DNA of 64,000 bases from contig NW_027062693.1 of the NCBI RefSeq assembly GCF_032884065.1, positions 806,001 through 870,000 on the forward strand. Direction: 5' to 3'. The notes beneath the pieces were generated by a model. The model searched no databases, was not told where the DNA came from, and worked only from the letters and a program-made list of their open reading frames with translations. The position numbers and the translations under genes were made by a program. Positions 3,884-18,087 of this stretch are shown here, one piece after another (position 1 is the first letter of the stretch; every line of letters begins with the position of its first letter). The stretch comes from Artemia franciscana (lineage: Eukaryota; Arthropoda; Branchiopoda; Anostraca; Artemiidae).

Positions 3884-4542
3884 TCATAAACCACACTTGA
3901 ACGGTCTCTCCCCATTGTGCACTCTTTGGTGCCTATTCAAATGGCTTGATACAGAAAAAGTTTTCTCACATATATCACACTTGTATGGTTTTTCACCAGT
4001 ATGTATTCTTTGGTGATCAATCAAATGGTGTGACAGAGAAAAAGTTTTCTCACATATATCACACTTATACGGTTTCTCACCAGTATGCATTCTTTGGTGA
4101 AGAATGAAACTGCTTGACCAAGCAAATGTTTTCTCACATAAATCACACTTATACGGTTTTTCCCCAGTGTGCACTCTTTGGTGAGTAATCAAATGGCTTG
4201 ACACAGAAAAAGTTTTCTCACATATATCACACTTATATGGTCTCTCACCAGTATGTATTCTTTGGTGCTGAGTCAAATTGCTTGACTGAGAAAAAGTTTT
4301 CTCACATATATCACACTTATACGGTCTCTCACCAGTATGTATTCTTTGGTGCTGAATCAAATTGCTTGACCGAGAAAAAGTTTTCTCACATATATCACAC
4401 TTATACGGTTTCTCTGTCAGCTTCTTATAACTTAAATGACCAGCCTTCTCTGTCAGCTTCTTCCCCTTCACAATTGGTCTTTGGCCAAAGAGTTTGGGTT
4501 GACCCACACCATCAGAACTGCACACAGTAGAATGAATTATCC
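3884..4542 (-). CDS. C2H2 zinc-finger protein, gene A, exon 4 (finger array)
   Basis: This is the last coding exon of a four-exon gene whose protein is about 352 aa. The acceptor is 'ctatag' before 4542, entered in phase 1 (codon GGG completed across the junction). After a linker rich in Lys and Thr ('[11 protein letters not shown]') come six C2H2 fingers of the form CDICEKTF-x5-L-x2-H-x3-H joined by TGE[KR]PYKC linkers, about 84 bp per finger. Contact residues (-1,2,3,6) read R-S-N-Q, Q-S-N-Q, V-S-H-T, W-S-S-L, L-H-H-D and V-S-H-R. Finger 4 has Phe where Leu is usual at helix position 4. The frame stops at 'KCGL*' because 8 bases present in copy B are missing; without that deletion one more atypical finger would follow. 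Such proteins usually bind DNA in the nucleus. The target is unknown and no KRAB, BTB or ZAD domain is seen. Confidence 0.85.
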
Positions 4543-4828
4543 CTATAGTAAAAAATTATTTTATTAACATTAAATAAGGTGAAAACGATTCAATAATCAG
4601 AAATCATGGCAGTTACAAATGAAAGGTGAACATTCTACAACTGATAATTGTTTAGGATCTACATTGCCTACCACTTTTGAATGAAACAAAAATGTAAGAA
4701 CAGAACTTGAAATTAGTTTCATTTCATAGACGAATTAGAATTGGAATAATAATACAGAAAATCTTTATCAGCTTTACAGCTTGATAGTCATACGGGATTA
4801 AAATTTTGTTTTAGGTTATAACAAATTT
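4543..4828. other. Intron 3 of gene A, 3' part
   Basis: This is intronic sequence between the zinc-finger exon and the RTE element, conserved at 40673-40949. The acceptor is at its left end (minus strand). Nothing else is seen. Confidence 0.5.
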
Positions 4829-5052
4829 GGTGGTGGGTGGAGCTCGTCCGGAATGAAGCAGACCTTGGTCTGCTGACCACGTGCCATTGGATATGGGGGA
4901 ATCCCCTAACTAAACGCTTCACGCAAAGGGCGGCCTTGACCTCACATGGTGGGTGGAGCCCACCCCAGGGGCACTCAATAGTTAGACTCCTCTAGCTAAT
5001 CATGTCCCAGGCCTAGGGTCATTTGGGCTTGCGACCCTCCACACGAACCTAA

Positions 5053-5935
5053 TTGCAACGAATAGTGATTGCCTCGGATGATCGATTTTCTTTTTACCCT
5101 TCAAGACCTCAGCATGTCCCCGGACCGAAATTTGACCATCGTTTGAACCTTATTGACCAAGGTGGTCTTCGCCTGGCCACCTGGAACGTGCTGACCCTTG
5201 ACTTCCCTGGAACAAATTCAATGCTTACGCTAGATGTGGCTGTAGAGGTGTAACTGAATCTCACCTTATAGAAAACGACTCTGACGACATTAGTGAAGGC
5301 TATCGCCTAATCTGGTCGGATGACCAGAGAACCGAAACTAATGGAGTCACACTTGTGCTAGACTCTTGGACCAGGAGGTGCCTCCTTTCTTACGAGCAAA
5401 TATCAGACAGGATACTAACAGCGCAAACCCAGCATAAACATGGAAAATGGACCATCATTGTCTGCCACGTCCCAACAAACCAAGCCTTAGATGAGATGAA
5501 AGATCGTTTTTACGCCAAGCTGTCTAGCCTACTAGCAAAAGTATCCCCTCATGACGTTTTAATTTTTCTTGGCGACTTCAACGGCAATGTCAGGGATACA
5601 GACGGCGTTTGGAAAGATGTTCTAGGACCTGTTCAACCCGACTGGTCAAACGACAAAGGACTAAGGCTCCTTCAGCTGTGCAACATGCACGATCTTTTGA
5701 TCACCAACACCCTTTTTCAAAGGAAAGAAGTTCACAAATATACCAGATATAGCAATGACGGATGAACAAGAAAGATATTAGACTACATAATCGTGTCCAG
5801 ACGCTGGCGTTCCTCTATAACTAGTTGCCAAACTTACAGAAGTGCAGAATTGGAAAACACCGACCACAGGCTTGCCGTCTCTAGCCTTAGACTACGCCTG
5901 AAAGCCCAGAAAAGTGATCACCGTCCCCCCAGATT
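5053..5935 (+). pseudogene. RTE endonuclease (EEP) domain remnant, copy A
   Basis: Frame pieces spell the start of an endonuclease/exonuclease/phosphatase domain (RLATWNVLTLDFPG), the central 'FLGDFNGNVRDTDG' motif near 5570-5600, and the end motifs 'LDYIIVSRR' and 'TDHRLAVSSL' near 5780-5880. In this family these residues nick target DNA for reverse transcription. The piece is broken by a frameshift after 5250 and a stop at 5763-5765 in the middle of the domain, so it cannot be functional. The 'N' and 'DH' catalytic positions themselves look preserved. Confidence 0.75.
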
Positions 5936-16258: not shown

Positions 16259-16429
16259 CTTCACTGTCAAAACACATGGAGCCCAATTCCTGGGTGTCAG
16301 GTTCAAGCTTACATGGTCCTGAAAAGCCACAAAAAGCACCCACAGGAACATCTTCCCTTTTAGGAGACAAAACATGGGTTGAAAAGTAAAAAAACTCCTC
16401 ATTGTCACTTGGTAAAGCCTCTTTGACTT
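16259..16429 (-). CDS. Zinc-finger gene A, exon 2
   Basis: This 171-bp exon is symmetrical phase 1. The acceptor 'ctttgtttcag' ends just above 16429, and the donor 'gtacatctc' follows 16259. It encodes 57 residues starting E-VKEALPSDNEEFFYFS and ending ELGSMCFDSE, acidic, with a short Lys-Arg patch (SPKRED). No known domain is recognised. Copy B has the same exon with both splice sites intact. I counted 8 differences in 171 bases, 6 of them amino-acid changing. It may serve as a protein-interaction or spacer region upstream of the fingers (inference). Confidence 0.8.
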
Positions 16430-18007
16430 CTGAAACAAAGTATAATAAAAGAGATATCAAACACATTCAACAGAAAAGCTTAAAAAACAAACCCAACCGC
16501 TTCCCCTTTTCAACACATTGTCCCACAAAATTGAATAATAATTCTTACAAGGACAAAAATCATACAATCTTTGGCCAATAACCAAAACCAAATCTCATGA
16601 TTTAGAGTTAAAAAATTAATCCTAAAATTCTTCCACAGGTTATGTGGTCTAGAGGCTAATCAGTTGGCTAATTATCTTGGATAGAGATACTTGTTGGCAA
16701 TGTTGTTTTTTCCTTTTAACGCTAATCCCAATTTCCTTTAGTGTCAGACAATAAAATTGTTCAGTTAATTCCATTTGTTAGAGCTTTCATTTGATTTTGA
16801 AAAAATACATATACAGGAAAGAAAATAGATACCCCACTTACTGTTTGATAGAAACATTGAAATTTTGTAGCCGATAATAAAAGTATTTTTCCTTCGTGTT
16901 CTAACTACCAGTCCCCCCCCCCCATTCCAAAAAACTTATATTTTAAAAGAGTTTAAATTGATAGAATATAAAGCCTTAAGACAAACTCGCAATTTTTAGA
17001 CACACACACATACAAACATACACACACACACACAAAAGAATCATACTTTTTCAGTTCAAACTATCATCGCATCAATGGGGCTTCAGCCTAAATCTAAGAT
17101 AAGTATTGATTAAAATCAATAACAAAACAATGTTGTGAAAATAATATTTACAATAAACATAAGAACAATATTTCTTGGAAAATGAAACATGTAATATCTT
17201 TAGCAGGCTATCTATTAGATAACCACGCTTGGCTATACTAAACAAATACCACATATTTAATTTAAAATAAAAATTAAAAAAAAAAACTATTTGCAACATA
17301 AGTGAAGAACGGGGAAGTCGAATAAACTCAATTTCCCGGAAAAATTGTAAAAAAAAAAAATTTGCACCCCTCCTACTCAAGATCTATTTACAGAAATATA
17401 TAAAACTAGCAATGCCTGGACATCTCTTAATACGTTTGGGCAAATTGACAAAATTTTGAGAAGTAAGAAAAATCTGACTGAATTATGTGCTTCTTGCCCA
17501 GGAAATAATATAAATATTAAACAACAAGACAAAAATAAATACCAAAAAATAAAAATCAATAGTTTGTAGGTTAGGTACCAAGAGGGGTGCTCAATTACCA
17601 AGAGACAATTTGTGTGGCTGCTCCACAAAATAAATTCTTTGGTAGAAATGACTTTTTTTTTATTGCAATTATTATTTATGCCTGCAAACAGGAAAGAGTG
17701 AAGTATTTTCCTGAATTGAAAACAGGAAAGATTGAACCGCAAAGAGTGAGAGAAATTTCTCAGCCTGAAGACTGGTTGTCTCCCAAACTGGAAAAATTAT
17801 GAAAAAAACTTTTGTGTTGTAAAATAGCCCTTTCATTACCCTCAGCTCTGAAGGACTAGATTCAAGCTTTTGTACAGAGTATGTTCTTTCTTTTTGTTAT
17901 TTTAATTGGGGAGAAGCTTATAAGCAAGAGGAAGAAAGAGAAAATATTTATTAAAGCAAGGCAAACCTATTTTTATTTTGTTACCACAATTTAGTATGAT
18001 GACTTAC
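16430..18007. other. Intron 1 of gene A
   Basis: This is collinear with 53668-55227. It contains a (CA)n microsatellite at about 17001-17036, longer than in copy B, and a C-tract at about 16913-16923. The open frames at 17072-17802 are disrupted in copy B and are not taken as genes. The donor 'gtaagtcatc' lies at its right end. Confidence 0.5.
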
Positions 18008-18087
18008 CATTTTTAACAACAGAAGTCTCAGGAATGGTGCTAGGTTCAGCCATATTTGGAATTTCAGACAACTCCATAATAATATCT
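18008..18087 (-). CDS. Zinc-finger gene A, exon 1 (start codon)
   Basis: The exon begins after a good acceptor ('taatttatttcag', just above 18087), so at least one non-coding exon should lie further right. The ATG is at 18077-18075; ten bases of 5' leader precede it. It encodes 23 residues, MELSEIPNMAEPSTIPETS followed by VVKN, then splits the next codon in phase 1 at a consensus donor 'gtaagtc'. The 70 coding bases are identical in copy B. A short acidic, Ser/Thr/Pro-rich N-terminus before interaction exons and fingers is common in zinc-finger proteins, but no named domain is present. Confidence 0.8.

Follow-up and report, generated by a model that had tools for sequence, protein, structure and literature searches.

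The closest described systems are the FiNZ genes of cyprinid fish, in which, as described (PMC10547256), an acidic, lineage-specific N-terminus without a known domain lies 5' of a single exon encoding the finger array, and the copies are clustered. Blocking the translation of FiNZ genes in zebrafish embryos derepresses transposons (PMC10547256). The KRAB zinc-finger genes of tetrapods are likewise described as an exon for an upstream module combined with a finger-array exon, in tandem clusters (PMC10547256), and the ZAD zinc-finger genes of insects as a C2H2 group that is abundant in arthropods and has a module at the N-terminus (PMC7655104). Here we analyze a 64,000-nt stretch of DNA (the window; C107:806001-870000) from Artemia franciscana, a species whose genome consists of ~67% repeats (PMC11492255). 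In this window a zinc-finger gene, copy A, appears from its sequence to comprise at least four exons spread across 14,000 bases. The likeness to FiNZ genes is one of described layout and not of compared sequences (PMC10547256). In contrast to the canonical FiNZ gene, where the N-terminus occupies 28 aa on a single exon (PMC10547256), the Artemia gene has three coding exons plus a leader within the finger exon.

Exon structure of copies A and B

Copy A lies on the minus strand and consists of four exons (80, 171, 159 and 659 nt; Table 1). Splicing them from the sequence joined all four in phase 1 into a single frame of 352 residues, in agreement with the boundaries and frame proposed in the initial annotation. 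No single open frame displays the gene, as had also been held, the four exons of A lying in separate frames over 14 kb. The splice sites had been described as consensus. AG and GT are indeed found at every junction, with acceptors TTTCAG, TTTCAG, TTATAG and CTATAG for exons 1 to 4. However, of the donors of exons 1 to 3 (GTAAGT, GTACAT and GTATAT), the last two are poor matches to the consensus apart from the GT. Exon 1 kept its proposed boundaries but probably not its place as the first exon: it starts at an AG acceptor 10 nt 5' of the ATG (ATTAATTTATTTCAG in A, ATTAACTTGTTTCAG in B) and, because it begins at an acceptor, an additional 5' exon upstream is likely.

Table 1. Positions of the exons of copies A and B in the window.
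Feature	Position	Strand	Description
Copy A exon 1	18008..18087	-	ATG at 18077; MELSEIPNMAEPSTIPETSVVKN; donor GTAAGT; acceptor TTTATTTCAG before exon; coding part identical in B
Copy A exon 2	16259..16429	-	171 nt, phase 1-1
Copy A exon 3	14218..14376	-	159 nt, phase 1-1; weak two-helix model, mean pLDDT 69.9
Copy A finger exon	3884..4542	-	leader of ~45 residues, six C2H2 fingers and start of a seventh, then TGA
Copy B exon 1	55228..55307	-	spliced frame, layout as in A
Copy B exon 2	53497..53667	-	spliced frame, layout as in A
Copy B exon 3	51563..51721	-	spliced frame, layout as in A
Copy B finger exon	39954..40672	-	leader and seven fingers, stop TAA
Post-stop sequence of B, read apart	39789..39953	-	finger with second His changed to Leu; last finger with first Cys changed to Arg

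The claim that copy B (39954-55307) has the same four-exon structure held as well. Its exons follow the layout of A with matching phases and give a spliced frame of 372 residues; donors 2 and 3 (GTACAT and GTAAAT) are weaker than the exon 1 donor. The two copies sit in a duplicated unit, in which ~0.4-29 kb of the window aligns to 34.6-61.5 kb, interrupted by copy-specific insertions. This alignment identifies A and B as a segmental duplication. Two aligned blocks within intron 3 (6992-9110 in A, 42688-44600 in B) are 94.8 and 94.6% identical between the copies, compared to 87.6-92.0% for the remaining eight; gene conversion or a separate insertion may account for the higher values. A 279-bp tandem repeat is present in 5.3 copies in B (45736-47205), with related repeats in A (11020-12307).

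A Pfam scan of the frames of the window covered 10 of 39 open frames. Retroelement frames with an RVT_1 match lie at 6722-7213, 22555-23133, 36007-37584 and 62024-63751, the last also containing RNase H. Remnants of DNA transposons were found at 47799-48440 (hAT C-terminal domain), 26042-26491 (DDE_1 endonuclease) and 58531-58959 (DDE_3 match below its cut-off). A perfect (GA) repeat of 127 bases occupies 35614-35740. Searches of the 64,000-nt window for Rfam families and tRNA reported none.

The leader and the wider family

We searched the finger exon of A, leader included, against the animal's own genome (1,270,528,402 bases in 6468 contigs). At least 232 matches were obtained at E up to 0.001 (150 of 2944 candidates scored), a count to which one array contributes several matches and to which other C2H2 arrays contribute as well. 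Leader-bearing matches were located on C107 at 719, 763, 810 (copy A, L001) and 846 kb (copy B, L004), the first two being longer copies, and at four other loci, one each on C14, C21, C7 and C17. A further array is present at 651 kb on C107, and related C2H2 arrays, in part with internal stops, are clustered at ~1.06-1.42 Mb and 8.15-8.26 Mb of C21 and ~1.05-1.18 Mb of C14.

The eight loci L001-L008 (five contigs, A and B among them) were read with 1.5 kb flanks. In 8 of 8 the leader comes after a phase-1 acceptor, TATAG or TGTAG, with 59 to 100% identity to A; note that these loci are the best matches to a query containing the leader and so a non-random sample. The proposal of a zinc-finger family with its own N-terminal module is therefore supported for the leader, which all eight loci share; for exons 1-3 the search covered the window, where A and B have them. 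Conservation of the leader was compared with that of the adjoining 306 nt of intron in four pairs, all of which are reported. The leader was the more conserved between A and L002 (2/135 versus 33/290 differences, p=0.0002) and between A and L005 (9/135 versus 40/289, p=0.03). No extra conservation was detected between A and L003 (3/135 versus 12/305, p=0.57) or between A and B (8/135 versus 26/297, p=0.34).

Finger arrays and DNA-contact residues

Spliced A matched PF00096 (E=6.4e-40) and PF13465 (E=5.7e-55). The fingers are 28-residue units of the form C-X2-C-X12-H-X3-H, arranged in tandem with TGEKP-type linkers (six units in A and seven in B), and thus belong to the C2H2 (Kruppel-type) class. 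The array of A resembles that of L003 minus an internal block of three fingers. Variation was counted in 51 fingers of L001-L006, using a matching pattern that misses some atypical units; L007 and L008 (16 and 9 fingers, 25 by the same pattern) were excluded as more distant. At the contact positions -1, 2, 3 and 6, mean entropy was 2.36 bits versus 0.47 elsewhere and pN/pS was 1.13 versus 0.25, a measure in which variation within genes and variation between genes are pooled and which does not test single sites for positive selection. The predicted DNA-contact residues have diversified among the family copies. Such far greater variation at the residues that would read DNA is a pattern also of families thought to track genome parasites. 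KRAB zinc-finger genes, too, show diversity at contact residues, as in the Artemia fingers.

The finger exons of both A and B stop short of those of L002 and L005, with the terminal finger missing. L002 and L005 both end in the last finger at the same stop position and encode a finger matching the altered last one of B. In A, an 8-nt deletion common to L003 terminates the reading frame ahead of the last finger. Because the deletion is common to both, the shortened form is probably older than the A/L003 duplication, the frame staying open. In B, the stop TAA precedes two further units, which bear the His to Leu and Cys to Arg changes.

Conservation of the N-terminal coding sequence

Strings of short exons can be proposed for much DNA by chance. 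We therefore screened the 11,755 bases of A that were aligned to B for internal exons that are symmetric in phase 1, measure 120-220 nt and, in A as well as in B, have splice sites and stay open. On the sense strand 9 candidates passed; they overlap one another and fall at 3 places, namely exon 2, exon 3 and 7469. The splice-site thresholds had been chosen with the exons already known. The third place, 7469, adjoins a reverse-transcriptase frame. The opposite strand of the same 11,755 aligned bases gave 0 phase-1 candidates. The sense strand also held 4 candidates in phase 0 and 2 in phase 2, for which the screen gave counts but no places.

Between A and B, noncoding sequence carries 596 substitutions in 7,029 aligned nt, which served as the reference for the exon tests (single-exon p values uncorrected). 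Exon 1 had fewer substitutions than noncoding sequence (0/70, p=0.004) and exon 2 marginally fewer (8/171, p=0.09). The rate in exon 3 was, if anything, higher (19/159, p=0.15), and the leader had 8/135 (p=0.35). Pooled, exons 1-3 and the leader carried 35/534 substitutions, not significantly below the noncoding rate (p=0.14). These comprised 28 nonsynonymous and 7 synonymous changes, corresponding to a dN of 0.070 and a dS of 0.063. Because dN and dS are about equal, no purifying selection on exons 1-3 and the leader is visible from the A/B pair alone. The same 534 nt showed zero length differences and no stop in either copy. The 47 indel events in the 7,029 aligned noncoding nt would lead one to expect 2.8-3.6 in a sequence of this size (P 0.03-0.06).

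These observations bear on whether A and B are decaying copies, having inherited their exon structure from a working ancestor with neither making a useful protein. Decay would account for the 8-nt deletion that removes the last finger of A and for the TAA of B with the altered fingers behind it. However, a protein that has lost its terminal finger may still be active, and the deletion common to L003 suggests that the shortened form was retained with its frame open through a duplication. The N-terminal dN close to dS, together with pooled coding sequence that is not significantly more conserved than noncoding, is what decay would produce, but the coding part of exon 1 is unchanged between A and B, and the expected indels are missing from the 534 nt of both copies, as are stops. 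We regard decay as a possibility to be taken seriously, albeit one that these data do not favor.

The N-terminal sequence

The first 134 residues of A, encoded by exons 1-3, include 25 acidic and 9 basic residues. A Pfam scan of the N-terminal 177 aa, taken up to E=1, gave nothing above cut-off and only a sub-threshold match to DUF6690 (E=0.025). A PDB search with the same 177 aa matched no chain up to E=1. Both results agree with the earlier view that the upstream exons carry no recognized domain. Neither a KRAB nor a ZAD domain was matched in the Pfam scan of the A N-terminus up to E=1, and in this the gene differs from both the KRAB and the ZAD zinc-finger genes; models of the two domains are included in Pfam. 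Structure prediction, on two sequences each, gave no structure for exon 2 (mean pLDDT 40) and two helices for exon 3 (mean pLDDT 69.9), too weak for a fold search.

Literature searches for a C2H2 family in Artemia listed no paper whose title concerns such a family, and the term 'zinc finger' is absent from the main texts of two Artemia genome papers. The description of the family as undescribed is partly supported by these main texts and by the Pfam, PDB and literature searches.

Discussion

On the sequence evidence, we consider it reasonably probable that A is a multi-exon poly-C2H2 gene, with C107 carrying at least four copies that have the leader, A included, and other chromosomes carrying further members of the family. 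The array of 28-residue fingers, encoded together with the leader by the last exon, would bind DNA. A distinct target for each copy would result from gain or loss of whole fingers and from changes at positions -1, 2, 3 and 6, and the 134-residue product of exons 1-3 may bring in a partner or keep the protein on chromatin. We infer that the gene is transcribed and that its product is a nuclear protein that binds DNA and recruits a partner; any account of how the family spread is likewise inferred.

The same gene could be an ordinary regulatory C2H2 factor, locally duplicated and dispersed and unconnected to repeat control. C2H2 arrays are common in animals, which would make such a factor unremarkable, but copies on multiple chromosomes with diversified contacts seem closer to the fast-evolving families than to conserved factors, and we think this reading possible but less likely. 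Less probable still is that the finger exon is transcribed from another 5' end, with exons 1-3 alternative or part of another transcript: intron 3 of A is 9.7 kb long with mobile-element remnants, an acceptor lies directly upstream of exon 1, and the phase symmetry of exons 2 and 3 makes them skippable, but the finger exon keeps its phase-1 acceptor in 8/8 loci and, of the three places found by the phase-1 screen, two are exons 2 and 3.

For a multi-exon gene of a dispersed family, the best reading by analogy is a lineage-expanded C2H2 family that may work like the KRAB or FiNZ zinc-finger genes. The most likely role would then be sequence-specific repression of repeated DNA, as in those families, an assignment that we make tentatively. 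The derepression observed in zebrafish embryos when FiNZ translation is blocked makes a role in transposon control plausible for the Artemia family, whose members may, by this analogy, act against transposons. A more specific version is speculative and, in our estimate, rather doubtful: the family could be Artemia's own counterpart of the KRAB and FiNZ genes, with a new acidic three-exon N-terminal module and a conserved leader, its DNA contacts diversifying under conflict with the abundant retroelements of the genome.

Reading a genome by single open frames misses genes such as A, with its four exons in separate frames over 14 kb. Should exons 1-3 be a module of the family, Artemia, a crustacean with ~67% repeats in its genome, would join the lineages whose zinc-finger proteins have an N-terminus of their own, and could serve to test independently whether such families evolve in response to transposons.
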